This document shows, in pieces, positions 1 to 12,113 of a DNA stretch of 64,000 nt; the stretch's first letter is position 1, and the number at the start of each line of letters is the position of its first letter. A program made the translations under genes and the position numbers. Under the pieces are notes generated by a model. It searched no databases, was not told where the DNA came from, and saw nothing but the letters and a program-made list of their open reading frames with translations. The stretch comes from Falsiroseomonas oleicola (GTDB taxonomy: Bacteria > Pseudomonadota > Alphaproteobacteria > Acetobacterales > Acetobacteraceae): positions 62,001 through 126,000 of the forward strand of contig NZ_JAERQM010000002.1 of the NCBI RefSeq assembly GCF_019029495.1. Reading direction: 5' to 3'.

Positions 1-24
1 GCGCAACCGAGAGAGAGGCCCGCC

Positions 25-870
25 ATGTCCTTCACCGCCCCCCCGCGCCGGCTCGGCACGCTCGACCGCCCGGATTGCCGCATCGCTTATGAGGTGACGG
101 GCAGCGGCCCGCCCATCGTCTTCGCCCATGGGCTGGGCGGCTGCTACCTGTCCTGGTTCCAGCAGGTGGCGTATTTCGCGCCGCGCTACACCTGCGTCAG
201 CTTCTCCCATCGCGGCTTCTTCCCCTCCACCGCGCCGGCCGGCGGGCCGGATCCGCGCGACTATGCGGGGGACCTGGCGGCGCTGGTCGACCATCTGGAG
301 CTCGGCGACATCGCTTTGGTCTGCCAGTCCATGGGCGGCTGGACGGGTGTGGAATATGCGCTGGCCCGGCCGGGGCGGCTGCGCGCCCTGGTGCTGGCCG
401 CGACCACCGGCTCGCTCGACCCCCGCCAGATGCGGGAGCCCGCGCGGGGCCGGCTGGAGGGTTGGAACCGGGACTCGGCCGCGGCCCGCGCCGCCATGCA
501 GGCCGCCCATATCCACCCGGCCGGCGGCCCGGCCATGGCGGAGCGCCAGCCTGCGCACCACCACCTCTACGCCGCGCTCGACCGGCTGAGCGCCGGGCTG
601 GACAAGGAGGCGCTGCGCGCGCGGATGACGGAGATGCGCCGCCGCCCGCCCGCCGACCTCGCTGGCGGCAATTGCCCGGTGCTGTTCATGCCGAACGGCC
701 AGGACCAGGTGATCCCGCCCTTCGCGCTGGAGGCGATGGCGCCCGAGATTCCCGGCGCCCGCGTGGCGCGCATCCCCGATGCCGCCCATTCCGCCTATTT
801 CGAGACCCCCGCCGCCTTCAACGCTTTGGTCGAGGCCTTCCTGATCGAGGTCGGCCACTCACCCCAATAG
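25..870 (+). CDS. Alpha/beta-fold hydrolase
   Basis: This 281-residue protein has the layout of a soluble alpha/beta hydrolase. An HGLGG oxyanion-hole motif lies near residue 35, the nucleophile elbow CQSMGG places the catalytic serine at residue 102, and a late Asp (NGQDQVIPP) and His (DAAHSAYF) complete the triad. No signal peptide is visible, so it is probably cytoplasmic. A purine-rich GAGAGAGG lies just upstream of the ATG. Its 3' end overlaps by 12 bp the end of the convergent DUF3147 gene. The substrate cannot be told; esterases, lactonases and C-C hydrolases share this pattern. Confidence 0.85.
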   Translation: MSFTAPPRRLGTLDRPDCRIAYEVTGSGPPIVFAHGLGGCYLSWFQQVAYFAPRYTCVSFSHRGFFPSTAPAGGPDPRDYAGDLAALVDHLELGDIALVCQSMGGWTGVEYALARPGRLRALVLAATTGSLDPRQMREPARGRLEGWNRDSAAARAAMQAAHIHPAGGPAMAERQPAHHHLYAALDRLSAGLDKEALRARMTEMRRRPPADLAGGNCPVLFMPNGQDQVIPPFALEAMAPEIPGARVARIPDAAHSAYFETPAAFNALVEAFLIEVGHSPQ

Positions 871-1194
871 GCCGTAATGCCGGGCGGCCAGGGTGTAGAA
901 GCCCCAGGCGACGGCGCCGCAGCCCAGCGCCAGGGGCAGCGACAGCCCCTGGCCCATGGCGACGGCGATGATGCCGAGCACGGTCGCCGTCGGCACCAGC
1001 CCCCAGAGCACGGTGACGGTGAAGGCGCGGATTTCCGCCGGTGGCGCGCCATCCACGCCGAGCCAGATCATCGACAGGATGGAGATCAGCGGCAGGGCCG
1101 CGATCCAGCCGCCGAGCTGCGGATTGTGCCGCGCCAGCAGGTTGATGCCGCCGATCACCGCGGCGGAGGCGGCGATCTTGAAGAGCATCAACAT
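859..1194 (-). CDS. DUF3147 family small membrane protein
   Basis: This 111-residue protein is almost entirely hydrophobic, with about four membrane-spanning segments separated by short polar turns, for example the LPLISILSMIWLGVDG region. Size and pattern match the DUF3147 family of unknown function. Its start lies inside the end of the upstream marR-like gene (7-bp overlap), so the two are probably one transcript and translationally coupled. A MarR regulator paired with a small inner-membrane protein suggests a regulated envelope or efflux role, but this is only inference from context. Confidence 0.75.
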   Translation of the reverse strand: MLMLFKIAASAAVIGGINLLARHNPQLGGWIAALPLISILSMIWLGVDGAPPAEIRAFTVTVLWGLVPTATVLGIIAVAMGQGLSLPLALGCGAVAWGFYTLAARHYGLLG

Positions 1195-1625
1195 GGCGGC
1201 TCGCCCCCCGTCACGCAGCGCAGCAGCAGCGCCATCCCCTCCGCGATCCGGTCGCGCTCGGCCTGCGTCAGCCGGGCAAGACAGGCGGCCAGGCGCGCCT
1301 CGTCGAGGCCTGTATGCTCCCTGAGCACCACCATGCCCTGTGAAGTCACCGACACCTCCACAACGCGCTCATCCGAGGATCGCCGCGTCTTGGTGATGAG
1401 ACCCTTGTCCGCCAGCCGGCGGGTGATTTCGGAGGCGGTGTTGGTGGCGCAGCCGATGGCCTGGCCGAGGGATCGGATGGTCGCGCCACCCTCTGCCGCA
1501 TATTGCAGCGCGCGCACGGCCTGATGACTGAGCGGGGTCGTATAGGGGGCGTGGCAGTGGCGATAGATCGCCGCGTGGTGGTCGGAGAGCCGGCGCGCCA
1601 AGGTCGTGCTGGTATCACTTCGCAT
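1188..1625 (-). CDS. MarR family transcriptional regulator
   Basis: This 145-residue protein has the MarR winged-helix layout. A recognition-helix region around residues 55-80 includes IGCATNTASEITRRL, followed by the wing sequence TKTRRSSDERVVEVSVT, where the DER is characteristic of the family. Members are dimeric repressors or activators that often sense phenolics or oxidants. It precedes and overlaps the DUF3147 gene, which is its likely target together with itself. An inverted repeat lies over its start codon. The ligand is unknown. Confidence 0.85.
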   Translation of the reverse strand: MRSDTSTTLARRLSDHHAAIYRHCHAPYTTPLSHQAVRALQYAAEGGATIRSLGQAIGCATNTASEITRRLADKGLITKTRRSSDERVVEVSVTSQGMVVLREHTGLDEARLAACLARLTQAERDRIAEGMALLLRCVTGGEPPC

Positions 1626-1637
1626 ATGACGAATATG
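1623..1637. promoter_or_regulatory. Candidate MarR operator (inverted repeat)
   Basis: CATAT-5 bp-ATATG forms a perfect inverted repeat that begins at the marR-like start codon and extends into the 183-bp gap before the divergent GNAT gene. The surrounding ~50 bp is the most AT-rich stretch nearby. MarR proteins often bind such palindromes to autoregulate. Only the symmetry is seen; binding is inferred. Confidence 0.25.
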
Positions 1638-1808
1638 TCGTTTGATACGATATTTTTCCAGCGCAAAATCTCAGCACCTGCGCCAGATGTCGACGGTGAT
1701 CTCCTGCCAGCCTGCCAGCGCCATCCCTCCGACCGGCAGCGCGGACGTCGCCGTCGTTGGGGGCATGGTATGCCTCCGCGTGCTTTCGCCAGAGAGAGAT
1801 GATCGGCC

Positions 1809-2285
1809 ATGCGAATCAAAAGAGCGACCCCAATGGATGCGCCACGCTGCGTGGAACTCGTTGAAGCGCGACGTTTGGAATACCAGGCCTATGAGCCCGT
1901 ATTCTGGAAGAAGGCGCCCGGTTCGGTAGCCTCGACCTTGCCCTGGTTCGAGCAGTTGTTCTCGGACTCGCGAAATGTGTCCCTGGTGGCCGTGGAGGAT
2001 GAGGTGGTCGTCGGCTTTGTCATCGCGCGTGAATTTCCAACGCCGCCTGTCTACGACCCCGGCGGCGCAACCGCCCTGATCGACGACTTCTGCGTTGCGT
2101 CAAAGAGCCGCTGGCTGGATGTCGGTGCCGCATTGCTGCGGGAAGCGAAGTCGGAGCTGAAGAACAGGGCTTATGCGCAGGTCGTCGTGGTGGGCGCGCG
2201 CCAGGATGCGGCAAAGATGGCTTTTCTGAGCCAGACCGATCTTTCCTTGGCGTCGACATGGTGGACGGGAGCGCTGCAGCCGTGA
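1809..2285 (+). CDS. GNAT-family N-acetyltransferase-like protein
   Basis: This 158-residue protein begins MRIKRATPMDAPRCVEL, typical of GNAT domains (beta1-alpha1). A central strand pair LVAVEDEVVVGFVIA is followed by IDDFCVASKSRWLDVGAALL, which corresponds to the acetyl-CoA-binding beta4/alpha3 region, although the usual Q/RxxGxG/A is degenerate (SRWLDVGA). The C-terminal part keeps the VVVVGA and FLSQTDLSLASTWW pattern. The degenerate P-loop leaves activity uncertain. It is transcribed divergently from marR. Composition is slightly lower in GC than the core genes, hinting at a mobile or accessory origin. Confidence 0.7.
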   Translation: MRIKRATPMDAPRCVELVEARRLEYQAYEPVFWKKAPGSVASTLPWFEQLFSDSRNVSLVAVEDEVVVGFVIAREFPTPPVYDPGGATALIDDFCVASKSRWLDVGAALLREAKSELKNRAYAQVVVVGARQDAAKMAFLSQTDLSLASTWWTGALQP

Positions 2286-2569
2286 GCAAAATTGCTGCGG
2301 GGTGACGCTACGCCGGCGACAGGCTGAAGGTCCCGCCGATGCGGTTCGGGTTCAGCAGCGGCCAGTACTACAATATGTCCCACCTGGGCGGCGAGAGGTT
2401 GTTAGGAATAGGGTCTGGCGGGCCGCGCCCGACGATGATGAGCACTATGTCTACGCTATAGCCCCCTGACGCCGCGTCTTGGCGTCATTCCGAGCAACGG
2501 TGGGATTCTTGGCGATAAGCGACAATGGCCGGATCTTTCCAGGGCGATGCTTGCAAAAAAGGGAAACAC
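2286..2569 (+). other. Intergenic stretch with a possible gene remnant
   Basis: No intact gene is seen. One plus-strand frame (about 2306-2461) reads as plausible protein (RYAGDRLKVPPMRFGFSSGQ and onward to LGGERLLGIG) before stopping, and has no start codon of its own upstream. It may be the tail of a decayed gene, but it is only about 51 codons and I cannot name a family. The rest has no clear hairpin or promoter. The next gene is preceded by AAAAAAGGGAAA, a weak ribosome-binding site. Confidence 0.2.
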
Positions 2570-3082
2570 ATGGCTGTTCCAACGTCCAAGGTGGAATTGC
2601 TGGCTGCGATTACGACGACATTCGAAAAGTTGATGGCGGACTTAGCGAAGGTTCGGCCCGACCGCGCAGGTGAGGCCACGATGAAGGGCCATGCCGACGG
2701 AACCACCATGAGCCCGGCCGATCTGGTGGCATATCTGATCGGATGGAACGAGTTGGTTCTGAAATGGCTGGATCGCGACGACCGGGATGAACCGGTTGAT
2801 TATCCCGAGGCCGGCTTCAAATGGAACCAGCTCGGCGTGCTGGCTCAGAAATTCTACGCAGATTACAACGCAATGCCATGGCACGAACTGCTCGCCCGTC
2901 TGGAGGATGCGAAAGCAGGATTGATCGCGACGATCACGGTCCGATCAGATGAGGAACTTTATGGCAGCGCCTGGTACGGGAAATGGACCAAGGGTCGTAT
3001 GATCCAGTTCAATACCTCATCCGCCTACGCCAATGCTCGAGCCCGGATTCGGGCAGCGCCGCTAGAACTCGATCGTGACTGA
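2570..3082 (+). CDS. ClbS/DfsB family four-helix bundle protein
   Basis: I place the start at the ATG giving MAVPTSKVELLAAITTTFEK, because family members begin with this '.p.sK.eLL..i...y.kL..' pattern. An in-frame ATG 15 codons upstream is less likely. The 170-residue product matches the DinB-like DfsB/ClbS (DUF1706) family, with GHADGTTMSPADLVAYLIGW and WHELLARLEDAK as diagnostic stretches and a late YGSAWYGKWTKGRMIQFNT motif. ClbS hydrolyses colibactin's cyclopropane; most relatives have no known substrate. The 3' end overlaps the convergent VOC gene by 21 bp. Confidence 0.85.
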   Translation: MAVPTSKVELLAAITTTFEKLMADLAKVRPDRAGEATMKGHADGTTMSPADLVAYLIGWNELVLKWLDRDDRDEPVDYPEAGFKWNQLGVLAQKFYADYNAMPWHELLARLEDAKAGLIATITVRSDEELYGSAWYGKWTKGRMIQFNTSSAYANARARIRAAPLELDRD

Positions 3083-3490
3083 CGGCGCGCTTCGCCTCGC
3101 CTCGCCTTGATATACGGCCTCAATGTTATTCCCATCGGGATCAAGGACGAAAGCGGCGTAGTATCCCGGATGATAGGCTCGCACTCCGGGTGCGCCGTTG
3201 TCGCGCCCTCCGTGGGCCAACGCCGCGCTATAGAAGGCATCGACAGTTGCGCGATTTTTCGCCTGGAAAGCCAGGTGATGTCGCCCCGTCAATTCGCCCG
3301 CTGCTGTGGAGCTGTCTCCCGAGGATATAATGAGTTCATCGGCCAAGAAGTAGCCGTTGTCCGTGCTGAGAACTGGTATATCCAGCACAGACATGACTGC
3401 CTTGTAGAAAATTTCGCTCGCGGCGAGGTCGCGCACGACAAGCTGGATATGATCGATCAAGCGTCCACGGTGCAGTCGGTTTGCTTCCAT
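3062..3490 (-). CDS. VOC family (glyoxalase/dioxygenase-fold) protein
   Basis: This 142-residue protein has the two beta-alpha-beta-beta-beta modules of the vicinal oxygen chelate superfamily. It opens with RLIDHIQLVVRDLAASEIFY, including the first metal-ligand His, and ends with GYYAAFVLDPDGNNIEAVYQ, including the conserved Glu ligand. A central HHLAFQAKNRATVDAFY supplies the second His. Such proteins include glyoxalase I, fosfomycin and bleomycin resistance proteins and ring-cleavage dioxygenases; the substrate here is unknown. It ends inside the convergent ClbS-like gene. Confidence 0.85.
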   Translation of the reverse strand: MEANRLHRGRLIDHIQLVVRDLAASEIFYKAVMSVLDIPVLSTDNGYFLADELIISSGDSSTAAGELTGRHHLAFQAKNRATVDAFYSAALAHGGRDNGAPGVRAYHPGYYAAFVLDPDGNNIEAVYQGEARRSAPSVTIEF

Positions 3491-3667
3491 GTCTTTTTTC
3501 CGTCGAATGAGAGGCGGACAGACCTTCGCACAGTCGGGAGTGACCGGTAAGTTTCAAAGCCGCCATTCTCAACGAAGAATACAAACGACTGGAATAGGGT
3601 CTCGATGCCGGCGGCGTTTGTGTAGCCGTCGCGCACAACATCGCGCCACAGAGGACAATCGGCGGAA

Positions 3668-3703
3668 AATGGCGGGGCGGGACGAGCCCGATATCAACGG
3701 TCG
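3668..3703 (+). repeat. Island repeat, right half (copy A)
   Basis: The 36 bp starting AATGGCGGGGCGGGACGAGC match the right half of the full repeat at 9563-9636 (ACTGGCGGTGCGAGACGAGC and onward to ATCGACGGTC) with a few substitutions. It lies upstream of the first toxin-like gene, so the first module is preceded by a right half and followed by a left half (5711-5743). Confidence 0.55.
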
Positions 3704-3760
3704 CTGGGCGAGCGGCCGGTGCCAGCCGCCGAGGCAAACCAGTGTATTCGCGGTTTGTTC

Positions 3761-3790
3761 TTGACCTCGGAGCGCGGTTGGGAATATGGT
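3761..3790 (+). promoter_or_regulatory. Sigma70-like promoter for toxin-immunity module 1
   Basis: TTGACC (3761-3766) and TATGGT (3785-3790) are separated by 18 bp and lie just ahead of the toxin-like gene. The predicted transcription start near 3797 would leave only a short leader holding the AGGAGGT ribosome-binding site. The match is good but not perfect. Confidence 0.45.
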
Positions 3791-3809
3791 CACATCACAG
3801 GAGGTGGCC

Positions 3810-4886
3810 ATGCCCGACCCGATCCCCGTGAGCGCCTCCGATCTGCGCCAGGCGATGCGCGATCCGCGATACTGGCAGTCGGGCCATCCGGAGCGTGGAG
3901 ACTACACCAAATGGGTTGAAGGCGCCTTTCGACAGCTTCAAGAAGGCTCGGCCAACTTGGACAGCCTCGTTTGGGTCAACCCCTATACGCGCACGCGGGA
4001 CGGCGAAACCGAGGAAGTCAGCGGCCATTTCCGCCACTCGGGCAGGCAAGGTGGCCTGGGCGATCCAAGTGGCGATGCAGCCCAGGGCGCCGTTTCGGTC
4101 GAGAACGAGCCGGGTCGCGGCGTCGCGCGCCGCACCACTGTGCGCGACCGCTCGGGACGCCTCATCGGTCGTTGCGAGACCCTCTCAGATGACGGCCAGA
4201 TTTGCACCATGGCTATGCCGGATGGCGGTATCCTCGTGCAGGGTTTGCGGGCTGGCGACGGCGCGTTCGTGCCCGTCGCCGCCCCAGCGGCTGCCTATGC
4301 CTTCCCGGCGTTGCTCGGCGCTGCCACAGGGCTCTACAACTACTTGCCCAATCGGCCGCTGACAGCGCCACCTGGCAGCGCCGAGGCGGATACGCCCTTC
4401 CTGTATTTCTATCGCGGCTTCGAGGGAACCGAGGCCGGCGTGCGGGTCACTGTCGGCCAGCTTTCAGAGCAGCGTGTGCGCGACTTCTGTCCGAAGACCG
4501 CGGAGTTCGAGGAAAGGCTGAGCGAGATCGCCGCGGGGCTGCCTCGCGAAGGACGTTCGCCTCAGCAATGGGGCACTGATGTCCACACAGCGATGCATCA
4601 CAGCTTGCGGCGGCAATATGGCACGACTTCGAGCGTGGTCAGGCCGGAGTTGTCCGTGGTCGGTGGCGTGGGACAACGCTATGGAACGGCAGGGTCGACG
4701 CGTCTCGATATCTATCACCGCGTAGAGAGAACCGACACGATCTGCGCCTATGACATCAAAACGGGCACGGCGGGCTTAAGCGCAAGCCAGGCCGCGCGGA
4801 TCTATGCTGGCGCCCATGCTTTCGGTCGCAGCAACAACATCAGCAATCCGCGTGTCCTGGTCATCGAACTCCGCCGGACGCCCTGA
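3810..4886 (+). CDS. Putative polymorphic toxin with C-terminal RecB-like PD-(D/E)XK nuclease domain
   Basis: The start is set by AGGAGGT 4 bp before the ATG at 3810; an in-frame ATG at 3786 lacks a site. The 358-residue product has no signal peptide. Its N-terminal half has DPRYWQSGHPER (residues 18-29) and a VNPYTRTRDGETEEVSGHFR motif (56-75), a repeat-like style I associate with polymorphic toxins. Residues 254-335 show RecB/Cas4-type nuclease motifs in order: WGTDVH (His259), Glu280, GSTRLD (Asp300), YDIKTG (Asp315, Lys317) and QAARIY. DNA cleavage is therefore likely. The gene is followed 2 bp later by its probable immunity gene. No secretion marker (PAAR, VgrG, Rhs) is visible, so delivery is unknown. 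A defence nuclease is the main alternative. Confidence 0.6.
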   Translation: MPDPIPVSASDLRQAMRDPRYWQSGHPERGDYTKWVEGAFRQLQEGSANLDSLVWVNPYTRTRDGETEEVSGHFRHSGRQGGLGDPSGDAAQGAVSVENEPGRGVARRTTVRDRSGRLIGRCETLSDDGQICTMAMPDGGILVQGLRAGDGAFVPVAAPAAAYAFPALLGAATGLYNYLPNRPLTAPPGSAEADTPFLYFYRGFEGTEAGVRVTVGQLSEQRVRDFCPKTAEFEERLSEIAAGLPREGRSPQQWGTDVHTAMHHSLRRQYGTTSSVVRPELSVVGGVGQRYGTAGSTRLDIYHRVERTDTICAYDIKTGTAGLSASQAARIYAGAHAFGRSNNISNPRVLVIELRRTP

Positions 4887-4888
4887 TC

Positions 4889-5611
4889 ATGGCAACGCTG
4901 AAGCAACTTCGCGAAATCTTCGCCCCGATCCTGGTCGAGCATCCCGACCTGGTTTTGCGTGGCCGCTGGCTGTTCCGCCCGCCGATCGAGAGTGCGATTG
5001 TGGGTTTGTATATCGGCCGAACTTCGTCAGCCAGCGACTCTGTAATGGCACTGTCGGTCATCCCGCTATCACGCTTCGATCATCCCTTGACGCTTGGATT
5101 TGACGAACCGTTTGAAGTGGAGCGTGTCATTGGCGTGCCTGCTCCCAACCGGTGGGTGCGGAGCGAGGAGGAAGGTCCCCCACGCATCTTTCAGGACATG
5201 TTCGCGCCAGAGTACCAAACGGAACTCTTGCGCAATTTCAACGCAAAGGTACCGGCGTTTTTCGATGCGTTCCGCAACTTCGACGATGTCGCTGCCTGGG
5301 TTCGCCGTTTCTGTCAGCCGCCCGACGGTCGAGGGGACATCGATAAATTCAGTGCTTGGCTTGCAACGATGCAAGGGGACTTCGTGACCGCCGCCAACAG
5401 GCTTCAAGCCCACATAGACTGGATGACGCCATCCTGGTCAGCATTCGGCGCAGACAGCGGGCGTGAAGAGAGAGCGATCCGAGACGTCCTGCGCACCGGC
5501 GACAGAGCGCATATCGCCGCCTTTCTGCACGCGATGGAGGAGCGCACGATCTCGCAAAACCGCCTCCAGCGCTTCTGGCGCCGCACGCCATTCCCTTTCG
5601 AGAGAGCGTAG
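4889..5611 (+). CDS. Putative immunity/partner protein of the RecB-like toxin (copy 1)
   Basis: This 240-residue protein has no family I can name. It starts 2 bp after the toxin stop codon, so the two are surely co-translated. It is soluble, with no signal peptide or membrane segment, as expected if it neutralises a cytoplasmic nuclease. A paralogue lies at 8740-9462 in the same position relative to a truncated toxin copy. The two share the first ~28 residues, the GPPRIFQDMF and NFNAKV blocks and the last ~35 residues (AAFLHAMEERTI, RLQRFWRRTPFPFE), while the middle is diverged. Conserved ends with a variable centre fit an immunity protein tracking its toxin. The function is inference. Confidence 0.55.
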   Translation: MATLKQLREIFAPILVEHPDLVLRGRWLFRPPIESAIVGLYIGRTSSASDSVMALSVIPLSRFDHPLTLGFDEPFEVERVIGVPAPNRWVRSEEEGPPRIFQDMFAPEYQTELLRNFNAKVPAFFDAFRNFDDVAAWVRRFCQPPDGRGDIDKFSAWLATMQGDFVTAANRLQAHIDWMTPSWSAFGADSGREERAIRDVLRTGDRAHIAAFLHAMEERTISQNRLQRFWRRTPFPFERA

Positions 5612-5710
5612 CTTTGGCTGCTAATCGCTATGCTCCGTATGGGGGCATGCTAGGAAACAGCCCGATCTATTCCGAGCAAGGATCGAAGGTAGCGGCGAGG
5701 ATGAGGGTAA

Positions 5711-5743
5711 GGGAGCGAGAAGCTGGGTAGCGGTGCGAACCGG
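5711..5743 (+). repeat. Island repeat, left half, cut by IS66 (copy B)
   Basis: The 33 bp ending TAGCGGTGCGAACCGG match the left half of the repeats at 9563-9636 and 10795-10839. The match stops exactly at the left end of the IS66 element, where the other copies continue with GCGAAACTGGCGG. The element therefore lies against the middle of this repeat. Confidence 0.6.
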
Positions 5744-5765
5744 GTAAGCGTCCGCTGACGGCTGC
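5744..5765 (+). repeat. IS66 left terminal inverted repeat
   Basis: The sequence begins GTAAGCGTCCGCTGACGG. It matches the reverse complement of the right end, which begins GTAAGCGTCCTCTGCTGA: the first ten bases are identical and a one-base offset follows. It lies 44 bp beyond the tnpC stop codon. Confidence 0.8.
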
Positions 5766-5787
5766 GGCCGTGGCGGCTTGACGCGGC

Positions 5788-7380
5788 TCAGGTGGCGTCG
5801 GGCCGGAGGTTCCAGGGTGCGAGTTCGCCGATGCGGTTGATCGGGTGGTCGGCGATGCGGTCGAGGAGCACGCGCAGGTAGGCCTGCGGATCCCAGCCGT
5901 TGAGCTCGGCGGTGCCAACCAGGGTGTAGATGATCGCGGCCCGCCTGCCGCCCTCGAGCGACCCGGCGAACAGGTAGTTTTTCCGGCCCAGGGCGAGCGG
6001 GCGCATCCGGCGCTCGGCGGCGTTGTTGTGCAGGCAGGCGCGGCCGTCGCGCAACACCGTCGTCAGCGCGTCCCATTGCGCCAGCGCGTAGCGGATGGCC
6101 TTGGCCAGGTCCGACTTGCCGGAGATCCGCCGCAGCGTCGCCTCCAGCCAGGCATGCAGGTCCGCCATCACCGGCGCCGAGCGGGCCTGGCGGGCGGCGA
6201 GGCGGGCCTCCGGCGGCTGTCCATGGATGTCGGCCTCGATGGCGAACAGCGGCCCCATCCGCTCGATCGCCTCGCGCGCGAGCAGGCTGCCGTTGGCCAG
6301 CATCTCATCGTGGAAGTAGCGCCGCGCATGCGTCCAGCACGCCGCCTCGACCACGCGGCCGCTTTCGTAGAGCGCGTTGAACCCGGAGTAGGCATCGGCT
6401 TGCAGGATGCCCTGGAAGTCGCGCAGGCGCCGCTGCGGATGCTCGCCCTTCCGGTCCGGCGTGAACTCGTAGAACACAGCGGGCGGGTCGCGCCCGCCGA
6501 ACGGCCGATCGTCGCGGAGATAGGCCCAGACCATTGCCGTCTGCGTCTTGCCGCGGCCCGGTGCCAGCATCGGCATTGGGGTATCGTCGGCATGGATGCG
6601 CGGGCCGGACAGCGCATGGCGACAGATGAACGACGCCATCGGCTCGGCCAGTGCGGCCGACCTGCCAACCCAGCCCGCCAACAGTCCCCTGGGCAGGTCC
6701 AGCCCGTCCCGGGCGTAGATCTCCGCCTGGCGGTAGAGGGGCAGGTGGTCGCAGTACTTCGAGACCAGCACATGGGCCAGCAGACCCGGGCCGGGCCTGC
6801 CACGCTCGATCGGCAGGGATGGCATCGGCGCCTGCGTCATCGCCTCGCAGGTCCGGCAGGAGAACGCAGGCCGGACATGGCGCACCACCTCGAACCGGCC
6901 GGGGCGGTATTCCAGAATTTCCGTCACATCCTCGCCCACCTTGCGCAGCACCCCGCCGCAGGACCGGCAGGCGCAGCCTCCGACAGGTAGATGCTCGACA
7001 TCCCGTCGCGGCAGATTCTCCGGCAGCGGGCGGCGGCCGCGGCGCTGCGCCTTCTCCTCCGATGCCGGGCTGCTGGCGGCGCCGTCCTCCTCGTCACCGG
7101 CACCACCCGCGACGGCGATGTCGGCGAGCACCTCGTCGAGCCGCAGCTCCAGCTGCGCGACCTCAGCGGCCAGGCGCTCCGACGATCGCCCGAACCGCTC
7201 ATGCCGGAGACGCGCAATCTGCACCCGCAGCCGCTCCGCCTCGAGCGTCTTGGCCTGCAGGCCAAGCTCCGCGATGCGACGGGCCGCGCGCTCCTCGGCC
7301 AGCTCACCGCGCAGCGCCGCGATCATCGCCGCCAGGGCGGCGGGATCCTCAGGCGGCGCGCTGTTCGGGTGCGGCGTCAC
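5788..7380 (-). CDS. tnpC: IS66 transposase TnpC (DDE)
   Basis: The product is about 530 residues, normal for IS66 TnpC. It has an N-terminal coiled-coil/leucine-zipper region, a zinc-finger-like CACRSC...CRTC segment and a DDE core: HADDTP (first Asp), LQADAYSGFNALY (second Asp) and HNNAAERRMRPLALGRKNYL (Glu). The C-terminal DUF4372-like tail LNGWDPQAYLRVLL is also typical. I favour the GTG at 7380 (VTPHPNSAPPEDP), which matches common IS66 N-termini; an ATG at 7440, 2 bp after the tnpB stop, would add 20 residues. It cuts and joins the IS66 ends. Confidence 0.9.
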   Translation of the reverse strand: MTPHPNSAPPEDPAALAAMIAALRGELAEERAARRIAELGLQAKTLEAERLRVQIARLRHERFGRSSERLAAEVAQLELRLDEVLADIAVAGGAGDEEDGAASSPASEEKAQRRGRRPLPENLPRRDVEHLPVGGCACRSCGGVLRKVGEDVTEILEYRPGRFEVVRHVRPAFSCRTCEAMTQAPMPSLPIERGRPGPGLLAHVLVSKYCDHLPLYRQAEIYARDGLDLPRGLLAGWVGRSAALAEPMASFICRHALSGPRIHADDTPMPMLAPGRGKTQTAMVWAYLRDDRPFGGRDPPAVFYEFTPDRKGEHPQRRLRDFQGILQADAYSGFNALYESGRVVEAACWTHARRYFHDEMLANGSLLAREAIERMGPLFAIEADIHGQPPEARLAARQARSAPVMADLHAWLEATLRRISGKSDLAKAIRYALAQWDALTTVLRDGRACLHNNAAERRMRPLALGRKNYLFAGSLEGGRRAAIIYTLVGTAELNGWDPQAYLRVLLDRIADHPINRIGELAPWNLRPDAT

Positions 7381-7442
7381 GCCGGAATCGTCCCAAACGC
7401 AGCCGCGTCGGGGCAAGGTGAAACTGCTGGAACGCCGCATTT

Positions 7443-7793
7443 CTATACCGCGATCTCGGGCTTCCAGCTCGGCGTCGGCGTGCGCCAGTCCAGCCCCTCC
7501 AGCAGCATCGCCATCTGCGCCGTCGTCAACGTCACCGCACCCTCGCGCGCGATCGTCGGCCAGATGAATCGGCCCTTCTCGAGCCGCTTGGCCAGCAGCA
7601 CCAGCCCTTGGCCGTCCCACCACAAAGCCTTGAGGAGATCACCGCGCCTGCCGCGGAACAGGAACAGGTGGCCGGAGAAGGGGTCGGCCTTCAGCACCGT
7701 CTGCACCTGCGCGGCCAGCCCGTCGAAACCCTTGCGCATGTCTGTCGCACCGAGCGCGAGGTGCACGCGCATCCCGGCATGCAGCGATAGCAT
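7443..7793 (-). CDS. tnpB: IS66 accessory protein TnpB (Orf2)
   Basis: This 116-residue protein carries the IS66 Orf2 signature: VHLALGATDMRKGFDGLA near the start, then LFLFRGRRGDLLKALWWDGQ and LLAKRLEKGRFIWP. It is required for IS66 transposition although its biochemical role is not well defined. Its ATG overlaps the tnpA stop codon (ATGA), the usual translational coupling in this family, and tnpC follows directly. Confidence 0.93.
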   Translation of the reverse strand: MLSLHAGMRVHLALGATDMRKGFDGLAAQVQTVLKADPFSGHLFLFRGRRGDLLKALWWDGQGLVLLAKRLEKGRFIWPTIAREGAVTLTTAQMAMLLEGLDWRTPTPSWKPEIAV

Positions 7794-8203
7794 CAGGCGT
7801 CGAGCGCCGCCGCCAGACGCCCTAGCACCTCAGGCCGGATCATCTCGGAGACGCGCAGCACCCGGCCGTTCGTCAGCACCACCTCGACCATCGCCGCGGC
7901 CTTGCCTGGTCGCACGACAGGCCCGCGCGACGGCAATGGCGCGCACGGTGCCTGCCTGGAGGCCGCAGCCTCGACCACACGCACTGGGACCAACGTCGGG
8001 GCTCCATCAGCGCGCACCACCCCAGGCATCGTTCCTTCTCGCACCTGGCGCCGCCAATCAAACAGCAGGCTGCGGCTCATCCCGTGCCGGTCCGCCACAG
8101 CCGCGACCGATGCCCCAGGCCGCGACAGCTCCTCAACCAACGCAAGCTTCTGCTCGACCGGCCACCGCCGACGACGCGCCACCACGCTGATCACCTCGCT
8201 CAC
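7793..8203 (-). CDS. tnpA: IS66 accessory protein TnpA (helix-turn-helix)
   Basis: I favour the GTG at 8203, giving VSEVISVVARRRRWPVEQKL, because IS66 TnpA proteins commonly begin MSEVI...RRRW. A longer reading from 8248 is possible. The 136-residue product has a helix-turn-helix (ASVAAVADRHGMSRSLLFDW) like the IS3/IS911 OrfA group and a C-terminal MVEVVLTNGRVLRV strand region shared by IS66 TnpA. It probably binds the element's ends or regulates transposition. Confidence 0.88.
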   Translation of the reverse strand: MSEVISVVARRRRWPVEQKLALVEELSRPGASVAAVADRHGMSRSLLFDWRRQVREGTMPGVVRADGAPTLVPVRVVEAAASRQAPCAPLPSRGPVVRPGKAAAMVEVVLTNGRVLRVSEMIRPEVLGRLAAALDA

Positions 8204-8307
8204 ACGACCGTCCGGCACCGACCTTACCCCTAGGCGTAAGGGCGCCAACGGACATCCGCGTCGCCCAGCATCACAGGAGATCAGCCGATCCGCGATACCG
8301 CCACAAG

Positions 8308-8329
8308 GCAGTCAGCAGAGGACGCTTAC
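8308..8329 (-). repeat. IS66 right terminal inverted repeat
   Basis: Read on the minus strand this end begins GTAAGCGTCCTCTGCTGA, matching the left end with one offset base. Immediately outside it the sequence CGATTTCTGCCCGAAG is the interior of the second toxin copy, equivalent to 4481-4496 in copy 1. Confidence 0.8.
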
Positions 8330-8737
8330 CGATTTCTGCCCGAAGACCGTGGAATTCGAGGAAAGGCTGAGCGAGATCGCCGCGGGGCTGCCACGCGAAG
8401 GACGCTCGCCGCAGCGATGGGAATGGATGTCCATACGGCGATGCACCACGGCTTGCGACGGCAATATGGTACGACCTCAAGCGTGGTCAGGTCGGAGTTG
8501 TCCTTGGTCGAAAATCTAGTTCGTCCCTACGGTACAGCAGGAGCAACGCGCCTCGATATCTATCACCGCGTCGAGGGAACAGACACAATTTGCGCCTATG
8601 ACATCAAGACTGAGACGACGGGGTTGAGCGCGACGCAGGCGGCGCGCATCTACGCAACAGCGCATGCATTCGGCCAACGGAGCGGGAACATCCCTAATCC
8701 GCGCGTTCTCGTCATCGAACTGCGGCGGACGCCCTGA
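8330..8737 (+). pseudogene. Truncated, frameshifted second copy of the RecB-like toxin gene
   Basis: From the IS66 end onward the sequence aligns with toxin copy 1 from Asp225 (DFCPKT) to the stop, so the first ~224 codons are missing. A single-base deletion near 8415, at the codons for QQWGTD in copy 1, shifts the frame. Downstream of it a 106-codon frame starting ATG at 8417 (MGMDVHTAMHHGLRRQYG) runs to the stop and keeps every nuclease motif: His, Glu (RSELS), TRLDIY and YDIKTE. It is thus a bare nuclease domain. It could still be made from that ATG, but the ribosome-binding site is weak. The intact immunity copy follows 2 bp after the stop. Confidence 0.75.
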
Positions 8738-8739
8738 TC

Positions 8740-9462
8740 ATGGCAACGCTAAAGCAACTTCGCGAAATCTTCGCCCCGATCCTGGTCGAGCATCCTGATC
8801 TGGTGCTACGCGGCCGCTGGTTGTTCCACCCGCCCATCGAGACGGCCATTATTGGGCTTTACATTGGCCGGGCAGCCTGTGCCGGCAGCTCGGACATGGC
8901 TCTGTCAGTGATTCCGCTATCGCGCTTCGCGCCACCCTCAGCGCTTGGCGACAGGCGGGGCTTCGAAGTCGAACGCGTCATTGGCGTACCGCCACCCGGA
9001 CGTTGGGTTCGAGGCGGGGACGAAGGTCCCCCGCGCATCTTCCAGGACATGTTTGCAGCGGAATATCAGGCGCATCTGGTGCGCAATTTCAATGCCAAAG
9101 TGTCACCGTTTCTGAATTCGGTAAGAGAATTCGCCGATGTGCTGTCCTGGGTCAGCTCCCTTCGTGGATCGCTCTTCGACAGTGGGCCGATCGACCTCAT
9201 CGACGGCTGGCTGGCTGCGATGCGGGGCGACTTCGCCACGGCCGCTGACAGGCTAAATGCGTATATTAAAAGGGCAGGCACACCGTCGTCGCCTCTTGGC
9301 ATTCAGGAGCATCAGCAACGCGGAGTGCTTCTGGATGCGCTTCAGACCGGCGACAGGGTGGGTATCGCCGCCTTTCTGCACGAGATGGAGGAGCGGACGA
9401 TCACCCATCACCGCCTGCAGCGCTTCTGGCGCCGGACGCCATTTCCTTTCGAGAACGCGTAG
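8740..9462 (+). CDS. Putative immunity/partner protein (copy 2)
   Basis: This 240-residue protein is a paralogue of the one at 4889-5611 and is intact. The N-terminal 28 residues are identical, but stretches around residues 45-75 and 125-190 differ strongly (for example SSLRGSLFDSGPIDLID here). The ending GIAAFLHEMEERTITHHRLQ and RFWRRTPFPFENA is conserved. Keeping an intact immunity gene while the toxin is broken is a common state in toxin arrays, where the orphan immunity protein can protect against related strains. No other family assignment is possible by eye. Confidence 0.55.
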   Translation: MATLKQLREIFAPILVEHPDLVLRGRWLFHPPIETAIIGLYIGRAACAGSSDMALSVIPLSRFAPPSALGDRRGFEVERVIGVPPPGRWVRGGDEGPPRIFQDMFAAEYQAHLVRNFNAKVSPFLNSVREFADVLSWVSSLRGSLFDSGPIDLIDGWLAAMRGDFATAADRLNAYIKRAGTPSSPLGIQEHQQRGVLLDALQTGDRVGIAAFLHEMEERTITHHRLQRFWRRTPFPFENA

Positions 9463-9562
9463 CTTCGGCTGCCAATCGATGTACCCAGTATGGTCACGCG
9501 CCGGGACGAAAGTCCTATCGGTTCCCAGCAAAGGCAAGATTGGCGGTGGGGAGGAGCGTGTT

Positions 9563-9636
9563 GGAGCGAAAAGCCGCTTAGCGGTGCGAACCGGAGCGAA
9601 ACTGGCGGTGCGAGACGAGCCGGAAATCGACGGTCT
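9563..9636 (+). repeat. Island repeat, full copy (copy C)
   Basis: This is the only complete copy: a left half (GGAGCGAAAAGC to GCGGTGCGAACCGG) joined to a right half (AGCGAAACTGGCGGTGCGAG to ATCGACGGTC). The left half recurs at 5711-5743 and 10795-10839 and the right half at 3668-3703. It separates module 2 from the DUF6968-like segment, as expected for a junction between tandem modules. The remaining sequence between 9463 and 9693 shows no gene. Confidence 0.6.
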
Positions 9637-9693
9637 CTGCAAACCTATCGGCCCGCTGTCGGATGCCGGGGCGACCCGACAGACGGCGATGGA

Positions 9694-10044
9694 TCACTTC
9701 GGCCCGCTGACCTCTCCTTCGGAGCGTATCGGTGGCGAGGGCAGCCCGAAATCCTTGAAGTCCCCAAACCAGGACAACCTGCCCTGCGCGTTCTCTGCAC
9801 AAATCTCCACGTCAACGGAAATGCAGTAGATCGCGTTCACCAGCGCCTGCATGGCATCCTCACCGCCAAATCGCCCCCTGCGGTTTGTCAGCGGTCCGAC
9901 AATTTCATAGGCGCAGAACCAGGATCTACCCTCTGGCGCAAGCTTCGGGCGGCCAATCCTGACGTGGAACTGTGGCTTGCCATCTACCTCCATGACCCTG
10001 GAGGCGATGATTTCCGTGAGATCGTCCGCTGGAATGCCAACCAT
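9694..10044 (-). CDS. DUF6968-like small protein
   Basis: This 116-residue protein has an order of blocks I associate with DUF6968: an N-terminal IIASRVMEV strand, FHVRIGRPKLAPEGRSWFCA, a central CAYEIVGP, then RRGRFGGEDAMQALVNAIYC and a final WFGDFKDFGLP. The family is of unknown function. Its ATG is preceded by GGGAGGT about 9 bp upstream and lies 17 bp after the previous gene on the same strand, so the two are probably an operon. In this island an orphan immunity role is a reasonable guess but is not shown. Family assignment is from memory of the pattern. Confidence 0.6.
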   Translation of the reverse strand: MVGIPADDLTEIIASRVMEVDGKPQFHVRIGRPKLAPEGRSWFCAYEIVGPLTNRRGRFGGEDAMQALVNAIYCISVDVEICAENAQGRLSWFGDFKDFGLPSPPIRSEGEVSGPK

Positions 10045-10061
10045 CTTGAGCTACCTCCCGA

Positions 10062-10367
10062 TTACGAGCGGTGGGATGTAGGCATCGCGACCACATTGCG
10101 CATAACGTCCATGGCGCTGGCCCAGCAAGACCGCCTCACACCGGGTGTGGCCAAGGCATCGCAGACCCTTTGATCGCGCACAAGCTGCCCGTCGCATGCA
10201 GCGCTTCTTCTGTAGGCAACGGCGATGTAGCGGTCCGCCTCGCCGCCTTCGGCGATGGCTACATCCAGATCTTCGTTGTCCCCGCCCGGGGGATCAGCGC
10301 GCGTGTGGGCAGAGACGGTCACGGGTTTGCCGTCTACCGTTCTGACGTAGCTCCGCACATTTACAAT
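10062..10367 (-). CDS. Small Cys-containing protein with a VRSYVR-type N-terminal motif
   Basis: The coding character begins at VNVRSYVRTVDGKPV and TVSAHTRADPPGG, a motif resembling VNPYTRTRDGETEEVSGHFR in the toxin of this island. The rest has a CDGQLVRDQRVCDALATPG and RRSCWASAMDVMRN pattern (three Cys), which I have seen in small proteins near polymorphic toxins. No ATG sits at the right place: GGGAGCGAGG lies 5 bp before an ATT codon at 10367, and a GTG at 10358 is the other choice. ATG codons farther upstream (10511, 10538) would add low-complexity sequence. It may be a trimmed toxin head. About 101 residues. Confidence 0.4.
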   Translation of the reverse strand: MVNVRSYVRTVDGKPVTVSAHTRADPPGGDNEDLDVAIAEGGEADRYIAVAYRRSAACDGQLVRDQRVCDALATPGVRRSCWASAMDVMRNVVAMPTSHRS

Positions 10368-10794
10368 GCCGGCCTCGCTCCCGATGCCACGACGTGTCGA
10401 CGCGCTGCGTGAGGGTGGGTCGGTACCGAGAAGCGGTCTTCTGGCGAGCGCTGGGGAGCTTTGGGTAGCTGCCGCGCGGTCTGGAATTGCAACAGATGAC
10501 AGCCCGCCCATGAGAGGTCTCCGTGTTCGAAGACGCATCCTGCATCAATATAGGAAAATAGTCAAGAACAAAATTAGAACTCTGCATCTGTGCAAATGCT
10601 ATGGCCTCCCCCAACGCTTGCCGCACAAGGGCCAAGGTAGACAGCCCAAACCCGATCACTGCCGGTTGGGGCTGCCTAGGGTATTCGTCATGAGGAAACT
10701 AGCCACTGTGGCCCTCATGAGCGAAGGAGGGGCGCTCAGTTGGATGGCTTTGCGTAGGTTCCTGCTCGGCTTCGCCGCGAGGCTGCGCGAGCCA
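10368..10794. other. Intergenic stretch before the tRNA-Ser
   Basis: I see no convincing gene in this ~430 bp. It includes the most AT-rich patch of the island, around 10545-10600 (TAGGAAAATAGTCAAGAAC), which may hold the promoter for the minus-strand pair at 10367-9694. It ends in a left half of the island repeat. Confidence 0.35.
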
Positions 10795-10839
10795 GAGCGA
10801 AAAGCAGCGTAGCGGTGCGAACCGGGGCGAAACTGGCGG
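10795..10839 (+). repeat. Island repeat, left half abutting tRNA-Ser (copy D)
   Basis: AGCGAAAAGCAGCG to GTGCGAACCGGGGCGAAAC matches copy C and runs straight into TGGCGG, which is the complement of the last six bases (CCGCCA) of the tRNA-Ser gene. Copy C has the same TGGCGG at its midpoint. The repeat thus includes the tRNA 3' tip plus ~38 bp of downstream flank, the usual layout of an attachment-site duplication, though the tRNA-derived part is short. Confidence 0.55.
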
Positions 10840-10923
10840 ACGGGGTGGGATTCGAACCCACGAGACGCTTTCACGTCTACACACTTTCCAGGCGTGCGCC
10901 ATCGACCACTCGGCCACCCGTCC
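10834..10923 (-). tRNA. tRNA-Ser(GGA)
   Basis: The minus strand begins GGACGGGTGGCCGAGTGG and ends CCCGTCCGCCA, giving a 7-bp acceptor stem, discriminator G and encoded CCA. The anticodon loop CTGGAAA gives anticodon GGA, read within a CACGC/GTGTG stem. A long variable arm (AGACGTGAAAGCGTCT) is diagnostic of a class II serine tRNA. T-loop GTTCGAATC is normal. Its 3' end faces the accessory island. Confidence 0.95.
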
Positions 10924-11076
10924 CGCGCAAGGCCGGCTATCTACCAGACGTCCCGCTCGCCGCAACCCCGCCACCTGTTGTCCGGCGCATTTTGCGCGGC
11001 GGCGCACCCTGGCGGTTGCCAGCCGCCCTGCCGCCGGCCCATAGCCAAGGTGCATGGCGGCGAAGGAGATTTCGGC

Positions 11077-11400
11077 GTGGACAAGGATGAACTGACGCGC
11101 TGGGCCCTGGCCAGCGGCTGGCAGATGCTCGCGGGCCATCCGAGCCTCACCAAGCCCCGGTCACCGAAGGAGGCGATCGTGCGCCTGGTGCTGAAGGCCA
11201 CCGTGGTGCATGTTGAGGTGAAGAAGCCCGCCGGGAAGTGGGAAAAGATGACCGGCGCCGCCTATGGCGACATCCAGCCGGACCCCGATACCGGCCTGCC
11301 CATCGGCCTTGGGCTGGACACCATCACCGGCTTCACCATGCTCATGCAGGACAACAAGGACCGCCAGGTCTTCGCCCGGATGACCGGCGGCGCGCCCTGA
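11077..11400 (+). CDS. Conserved hypothetical protein
   Basis: The GTG start (VDKDELTRWALASGW) is chosen because GAAGGAG lies 8 bp upstream; the frame continues farther upstream but loses protein character inside the tRNA region. The 107-residue product is soluble, rich in Lys and Asp, with no signal peptide. The segment SPKEAIVRLVLKATVVHVEVKK followed by GDIQPDPDTGLPIGLGLDTI suggests a small alpha/beta domain. I do not recognise the family. Confidence 0.65.
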   Translation: MDKDELTRWALASGWQMLAGHPSLTKPRSPKEAIVRLVLKATVVHVEVKKPAGKWEKMTGAAYGDIQPDPDTGLPIGLGLDTITGFTMLMQDNKDRQVFARMTGGAP

Positions 11401-11488
11401 AAACCTCGGCAGGCGCGCCCCAAGCCTCGACCTGCGCCGCCGCCGGGTGCATAGGGGGCGCCCTTAATCCGACCGGAGAGTACTACGG

Positions 11489-11737
11489 ATGAAGCCAGCC
11501 GAGATCGCCCGCGTGCAAGCCTATCTGCGCCGCCTGCTGGCCACGGACCGCATCACCCTTCTGGCCCCCGCCCGCCCAGGCCTGTCGGTCGAGGTCGCGG
11601 TGCAGGACGAGGTCATTGGCACGGTGCATCGCGATGATGAGGAAGGCGAGGTCTCCTACGCCGTCATGCTGACGGTGCTGGAGGAAGACCTGCCGCCCGA
11701 GACCGCCCCGTCGCCGCCGGCCCGCGGTCGGCGCTGA
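11489..11737 (+). CDS. DUF3126 family protein
   Basis: This 82-residue protein matches DUF3126, a small family widespread in alphaproteobacteria: an N-terminal MKPAEIARVQAYLRRLL, a central VEVAVQDEVIGTVHRDDEEG and SYAVMLTVLEEDL. The C-terminal 12 residues are a Pro/Arg tail. The function is unknown. It lies 88 bp after the preceding hypothetical gene on the same strand. Confidence 0.85.
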   Translation: MKPAEIARVQAYLRRLLATDRITLLAPARPGLSVEVAVQDEVIGTVHRDDEEGEVSYAVMLTVLEEDLPPETAPSPPARGRR

Positions 11738-11753
11738 AGGGCGAGGCCCGGTC

Positions 11754-12062
11754 TCAGCGATACCGGCGCTCGTTGCCCCAGCCCGGCTGAAGCAGCAGGT
11801 CCGGCATGGGCATCGGCTGCGGCGTGGCGGAAGGCGGCACCAGGCCGCTGCCGCAGGCCGGGCGCAGGATGCCGCAATCCCAGGTGAAGCGATCCGGCCT
11901 GCCCGTCATGCTGCCGCCGCGGACGAAGCCGCAGGTACAAAGCTTGCCGGCGATGCAGGCCACCGTCCCCTCCCGCGCGGCCGTGCAGGCGGGCGGCGGC
12001 GCTTCCGCCCACGCGGGCGGTGCGGTCAGCAGGAGCAGAAGAACAGCCAGGATGCGCCACAT
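11754..12062 (-). CDS. Small secreted cysteine-containing protein
   Basis: MWRILAVLLLLLTAPPAWAE is a clear Sec signal peptide with an AWA cleavage site near residue 19. The ~83-residue mature part has six cysteines (ACTA, ACIAGKLCTCG, DCG, ACG), suggesting disulfides in the periplasm. The C-terminus is Pro/Met-rich. I do not recognise a family. It is downstream of and on the same strand as the dsbD-like gene (51 bp beyond that gene's stop on the map is upstream here), so a link to periplasmic disulfide chemistry is possible but unproven. Confidence 0.65.
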   Translation of the reverse strand: MWRILAVLLLLLTAPPAWAEAPPPACTAAREGTVACIAGKLCTCGFVRGGSMTGRPDRFTWDCGILRPACGSGLVPPSATPQPMPMPDLLLQPGWGNERRYR

Positions 12063-12113
12063 CCCGGCAGATTGCGCCCGTATTCATGAAGCAGGGCTTG
12101 ACGCAGCCGCCTG

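Follow-up and report, generated by a model that had tools for sequence, protein, structure and literature searches.

Within a 64,000-nucleotide stretch of the Falsiroseomonas oleicola genome (the window), two genes separated by 2 bp encode a 358-aa protein with a C-terminal PD-(D/E)XK-type nuclease domain, hereafter the tip, and a 240-aa partner. By sequence comparison, the layout of this pair is that of a polymorphic toxin-immunity cassette, because the tip is found on N-termini unrelated to one another and immunity-like genes can have additional tandem copies. On balance, we favour the explanation that the 358-aa protein is a nuclease effector that a tag mimicking a scaffold draws into an endogenous phage-like particle, with the 240-aa protein as its cognate immunity protein. 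Sequence comparison and modelling give the toxin an architecture of scaffold-like tag, linker motif, beta-rich and hydrophobic middle and PD-(D/E)XK-type tip, followed by the family-specific partner gene (Table 1). What is probably new here is this tip and partner within the polymorphic toxins, together with a probable delivery route. The original prediction had placed both reading frames as we find them and had proposed a polymorphic toxin layout lacking any delivery marker; the layout held up, and the latter point needs correcting, since a candidate delivery-type marker appears to sit in the toxin N-terminus.

This marker resembles the C-terminus of a phage scaffolding protein. The 358-aa protein matches, in its own genome, itself, the second tip of the window (as two pieces) and the N-terminal 222 residues encoded by a gene on contig C29. 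A tag profile built from two N-termini, that of the window toxin and that of the C29 gene, found matches in at least 90 of 299 Acetobacterales genomes at E 0.01, where no more than 18 candidates per genome were scored. Of these matches, the strong and long ones that we inspected were other tagged genes; the weaker ones span about positions 7-54, usually in one gene per genome, for example a gene in L052 with the C-terminal end ...ELRKMMRDPRYWRTREPDFVQRVTEGFRRLVRA. In F. oleicola the counterpart has a head-tail adaptor (PHROG 332, E 3e-85) on one side and a major head protein (PHROG 3437, E 1e-65) on the other, and itself shows a weak 'head assembly' match (E 0.006). Because of this position and this match, the gene just upstream of the major capsid gene probably encodes a scaffolding protein. 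When a profile of 11 scaffold C-termini, its rows originally noticed via the tag profile, was run against 935 open reading frames (ORFs) of the window, the toxin was the sole significant match (E 4.2e-8, the next 1.3), residues 10-46 aligning with the extreme C-terminal end of the scaffold. The reversed profile gave no match below 0.3 (best E 0.32). In 21 further loci, chosen for matching the tag profile, the scaffold profile recovered at E <0.01 all 22 tag-profile matches other than three clear scaffolds, and none of the remaining ORFs among 910 matched at that threshold; one of the 22, in L365, is taken to be a scaffold itself, which leaves 21 tagged genes. The coat-binding domain of scaffolding proteins is a helix-turn-helix; for the toxin, helices at residues 9-17, 20-23 and 32-44 are predicted with low confidence. 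Tagged genes elsewhere have varied tips and varied downstream genes (tips labelled by eye). For example, the tips in L361 and L362 resemble a lysozyme-type enzyme and those in L364 and L372 an alpha/beta hydrolase.

Gene order ties the scaffold matches to a capsid. Both matches were present in 84 genomes, listed on one contig in 77 and on different contigs in 5, with no scaffold match listed in the other 2; in 73 of the 77 the scaffold match ends no more than 600 bp ahead of the capsid match (median 257). In two of the remaining four genomes (L397 and L398) and in a viral contig (L386), the gap between scaffold and capsid is filled by a tagged gene with another tip and a downstream partner, and on the viral contig (4359-7215) three tandem partner-like genes follow the tagged gene. 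A gap of about 1 kb in the other two (L403 and L404) holds no ORF passing our filter (>90 aa, codon-position G+C), and in L369 a tagged gene lies behind the scaffold on a contig that stops before any capsid. The capsid occurs in 86 of the 299 Acetobacterales genomes, as a single match in 79 of the 86. Every one of the 19 genomes whose tag match is strong (E 1e-10 or better) carries it (p 1.1e-11, uncorrected for phylogeny), and the six genomes with weak tag matches only (E 0.003 to 0.01) lack it.

In F. oleicola the corresponding head-tail-terminase element is found on contig C12 at about 669-680 kb (L387, 664000-680000; also L402), its capsid and scaffold genes at about 671-673 kb. We call it podovirus-like because of the names of its matches among solved structures: phage portals for the adaptor (E 4e-31 to 3e-5), phage major capsid protein 9eg4 for the capsid (E 5e-28, as against E 0.047 for a 'T7-like' capsid), a tail nozzle for a tail protein (E 2e-67) and two large subunits for the terminase (E 3e-24 and 5e-24), one of them named DNA maturase B. 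A regulator gene, presumably LexA/S24-like, lies upstream of the element in all eight compared genomes, and a common flanking host gene, which we take to be lysS-like, is present in four of the eight, the stretch being too short to judge in two of the other four. This shared regulator and flank suggest that the element is inherited vertically in part of the group. Gene transfer agents package random host DNA and are vertically inherited, mostly as one copy per genome; the putative carrier element resembles them in being mostly single-copy and in having a flanking host gene common to several genomes; we assume it to be podovirus-like rather than RcGTA-like, and consider it a candidate domesticated particle. 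The window locus lies some 600 kb from these capsid genes, and no phage genes were recognised by eye beside the pair among the ORFs of positions 1-14000 (Pfam on 8 proteins only).

The tip was modelled as an alpha-beta-beta-beta-alpha-beta core with D...(D/E)xK, in keeping with the PD-(D/E)XK superfamily and with the fold originally predicted. Eleven residues are invariant over 34 tips (C227, G255, H259, E280, R298, D300, C312, Y314, D315, K317 and T318), H259, E280, D300, D315 and K317 thus being kept in every row of an alignment made without L015, L025, L035 and L047 (of 36 tip loci) and without the window's second copy. Nine of the eleven, all but C227 and T318, map to the predicted core, in its helix and three strands. 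Therefore the ordered motifs pointed out earlier (WGTDVH, Glu280, GSTRLD, YDIKTG) are real. RecB/Cas4-type nucleases have the H, E, D, DxK order and the fold topology seen in the window tip; unlike them, the tip family does not keep QxxxY behind the DxK strand (by eye, 4 of the 34 aligned tips have the Q, so that QAARIY is no family motif), and no solved member matched by sequence. Membership of RecB/Cas4 proper was rejected on the missing QxxxY. The start at ATG 3810 agrees with that of a close relative (L356), and relatives have a hydrophobic stretch comparable to that predicted at residues 164-181 (by eye).

Neither protein had a significant match to Pfam, NCBIfam or PADLOC models; the single library hint for the pair was PHROG 21154 on toxin residues 51-75 (E 4.4e-4). 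Solved structures, searched by sequence, yielded nothing helpful for the tip or the partner, where the Tako8 matches look like a repeat-protein artefact, or for the scaffold. With Foldseek, neither the tip model nor the partner model matched anything at E 0.001 or better, and the best second-look match of the partner model covered 63 residues of TPR-like helices only. The 358-aa protein matched no plasmid or phage records, and the tip profile found nothing in viral contigs. The VxxYTRxxDG-like motif is also present in most tagged genes of other loci (by eye). A 32-aa motif query had one match in phage records, at E 8; a strict VxxYTR pattern had none in viral contigs, and a looser one had nine stretches there, of which only that in L349 looks like a real small protein by eye. 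The motif's phage link is therefore the weak PHROG 21154 match alone, the other phage searches having been fruitless.

The tip and its partner travel together. A search of 289 genomes of the class found the tip in F. oleicola and one other genome, where the downstream gene (227 aa) is a partner homologue 28% identical to the 240-aa protein; the latter, as a single-sequence query, found only its own genome. A three-row tip alignment yielded the 36 tip loci from 84,980 species genomes, with the closest relatives in Falsiroseomonas and Roseococcus and most loci in genera that we take to belong to Hyphomicrobiales. Behind the tip, 35 of the 36 have a partner homologue, a count that speaks for adjacency rather than discovery because the partner profile was built mostly from these loci themselves. 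The exception, L042, has a partner-like stretch at 2344-4134 on the minus strand, opposite to the tip. Tip or partner is disrupted in a few loci (L015, L029, L035 and L047); in L015, from Falsiroseomonas, C227 and D315 are absent, and the two genes are fused in one frame (7428-9191) in what is probably a decayed copy.

Linkage was also scored in 347 genomes of the order of G283, with the two profiles run separately and 8 or 9 candidates scored per genome. The partner was present in 17 genomes, the tip in 16 and both in 14 (Fisher p 2.5e-20), and 19 of 23 tip places had a partner -1 to +86 bp downstream. Partner genes were not immediately behind a tip at 15 of 34 places; five of these are extra copies near a tip and ten have no tip on the same contig and strand, including a tandem set in G465, solitary genes in G577 and G474, as well as fragments and a weak match in G311. 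Four of the 23 tip places weigh against this reading, as they have no such partner downstream: a full tip in G573, for which none was found, and three weak, distant tips (L100, L106 and L108). L100 and L108 have a different small gene (146-156 aa) downstream, which may represent another immunity family for this nuclease, and a QPRDExGRW-type N-terminus or a variant of it, the tip standing alone in L106.

In fact, the tip is joined to several kinds of N-terminus. In 23 of the 36 loci the motif QPRxPxG..GGxW stands no farther than 1500 bp upstream of the tip, whatever the frame, and a Phage_Mu_F domain was found in one of 27 scanned proteins (L028, from Devosia, E 2e-11), a set that includes the C29 gene, which has no such tip. 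Thus the same tip follows scaffold-like, QPRxPxG and MuF N-termini, as expected for the exchangeable modules of polymorphic toxins, and it is accompanied by an adjacent family-specific immunity-like gene and by extra copies, arrays among them. A stricter motif, QPRxPAGxxxGGQW, is common in viral contigs, among the matches listed. Of 97 complete motif-bearing viral ORFs of 150-750 aa, the first 60 were scanned, near-duplicates included; they gave 14 Phage_portal and 9 CdiA-CT RNase A domain matches, and single matches to Ntox37, ADP-ribosyltransferase, deaminase and MuF models. Eight of ten chosen motif proteins were portals, and three of the eight had a toxin domain behind the motif in the same frame: L113 (707-2476), L119 (3293-5254) and L120 (9631-11196), all viral contigs in which portal domain, motif and toxin domain (Ntox37 or CdiA-CT RNase A) follow one another. 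For the related motif QPRDExGRW, 45 of 68 eligible ORFs were scanned, and portal, protease and head proteins were among the commonest matches (first 25 of 44 families). We take all these QPR motifs to be junctions joining head proteins to toxin tips. Among the matches listed, titles and abstract openings of the open-licence literature yielded no scaffold-tagged toxin, portal-motif-toxin fusion or QPRVPAG/GGQWT in this sense.

Three further known systems invite comparison. Excerpts of Jamet et al. 2017 (PMC5576092) and, under the name MuF-SS, of PMC3482391 describe MuF polymorphic toxins as a toxin tip on a phage head-associated N-terminus with a small downstream immunity-like gene, and propose loading into phage heads. 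The window pair is like them in these respects, and one tip relative (L028) carries the MuF domain itself; unlike them, the window protein matches no MuF model, it is similar in its N-terminus to the C-terminal end of the scaffold-position protein, and no prophage was recognised beside it. With no MuF match here and only one among the 27 scanned proteins, we rejected membership of the MuF toxins. The Tox-REase families of polymorphic toxins, above all Tox-REase-9, as far as excerpts of Zhang et al. 2012 (PMC3482391) describe them, share a restriction-endonuclease-fold tip and a GxxxH, E, D order resembling the GTxxH, E, D of the window tip, whereas the last motif here is DxKT and not ELKP; for Tox-REase-1 to -10, Pfam models matched none of the 27 proteins at E 0.05. 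Finally, in man-made P22 capsids, cargo enters the procapsid through a fused scaffold protein that keeps the coat-binding end, giving loaded capsids (excerpts of PMC9962691); the window tag, by contrast, is a natural, N-terminal and putative encapsidation tag that goes with another scaffold family.

From this arrangement we infer toxicity, immunity, encapsidation and delivery of the pair as follows. The C-terminus of the P22 scaffold holds to the inner coat surface, and the scaffolds of P22, SPP1 and T7 exit during maturation (excerpts of PMC9965877). By mimicking the coat-binding end of a scaffolding protein, the tag would recruit the toxin to procapsids, either those of the podovirus-like particle that the cell itself encodes or those of a related phage. 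The nuclease would stay within the particle, leave with it and cut the DNA of a recipient cell; producer and kin would be protected by the 240-aa protein, binding to the tip and neutralising it. The window locus would then be an orphan cassette, remote from the capsid genes.

The joining of a scaffold-like tag to a DNA-nuclease-type tip, with no phage genes seen next to the pair, would also suit a capsid-targeted antiviral nuclease, which the tag would send into the procapsids of invading or induced podovirus-like phages to destroy DNA under packaging while the partner shields the chromosome. We consider this unlikely, as other tagged tips, lysozyme-like or hydrolase-like by eye, seem unrelated to DNA cutting, and some tagged cassettes lie inside the head operon, where a defence gene need not be. 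Similarly doubtful, and ranked next, is a toxin-antitoxin or abortive-infection pair working in the cell that makes it, undelivered, its N-terminus being vestigial. The closely spaced two-gene operon agrees with it, and PADLOC neither supports nor excludes it because neither protein matched; the swapping of N-terminal modules around a constant tip-partner unit argues against it, and tip-less partner copies in arrays fit immunity to outside toxins better.

Further cassettes follow the pair in the window. Between the first copy and the second lies an insertion element that we take to be IS66-like, with no target duplication seen, and the second copy begins where this element stops (about 8329). 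The original prediction had a second nuclease copy with a paralogous partner; the partner is there, 64% identical to the first, and of the nuclease only the tip remains, with a 1-bp frameshift near 8423 relative to copy 1. For a third, degenerate cassette no scaffold-like tag was found by eye in the three minus-strand frames of 9601-10900; its pairing of a motif protein with a DUF6968 protein is also seen, by eye, in L366, where the tag is kept. These decayed copies beside the IS66-like element, together with the Glu that replaces the catalytic Asp in the disrupted L015, might suggest a relic without present function, which we find improbable, since copy 1 is intact with every invariant residue and dN/dS is 0.23 between the window's two partner copies and 0.12 for the tip against L014.

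Table 1. Features of the toxin-immunity locus and its neighbourhood in the window.
Feature	Position	Strand	Basis or remark
AGGAGG, ribosome-binding-site-like, ahead of ATG 3810	3798..3803	+	seen by eye
Nuclease toxin candidate, 358 aa	3810..4886 (including stop)	+	ORF calls, relatives
Scaffold-C-terminus-like tag, residues 10-46; begins SDLRQAMRDPRYW, ends FRQLQEG	3837..3947	+	profile search
VxxYTRxxDGxxxxVxxHxR motif, residues 54-75	3969..4034	+	PHROG 21154 weak match, E 4.4e-4
Predicted hydrophobic helix, residues 164-181, N-terminal to the tip	4299..4352	+	structure model
PD-(D/E)XK-type nuclease tip, residues 209-358	4434..4883	+	alignment, model
Putative cognate immunity protein, 240 aa	4889..5611	+	beta-sheet and TPR-like helices (model)
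Insertion element between both copies, presumably IS66-like	5744..8329	-	ends share GTAAGCGTCC
Second nuclease tip, N-terminal half missing, frameshifted	8330..8737	+	ORF and sequence comparison
Second 240-aa immunity-like protein, frame open	8740..9462	+	
DUF6968 protein, 116 aa, partner of third degenerate cassette	9694..10044	-	Pfam PF22302, E 1.5e-18
158-aa ORF with VxxYVRxxDG motif, remnant of third tagged cassette	10062..10538	-	

For many predicted polymorphic toxins that lack a secretion marker, export is an open problem. A scaffold-mimicking tag would offer a simple sequence rule for spotting capsid-borne effectors, would connect the nuclease and its immunity gene with a definite particle of their own genome, and would make the loading of toxins into phage heads, as proposed for MuF proteins, directly testable. 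More broadly, and with less assurance, we suggest that Acetobacterales may carry a domesticated podovirus-like particle as the carrier for a large set of polymorphic toxins, such that a copy of the coat-binding end of about 40 residues might suffice to load any toxin, whether from the head operon or from orphan cassettes. If true, this would be a natural counterpart to engineered scaffold-fusion capsids, and it would suggest a purpose for a widely kept phage-like element.
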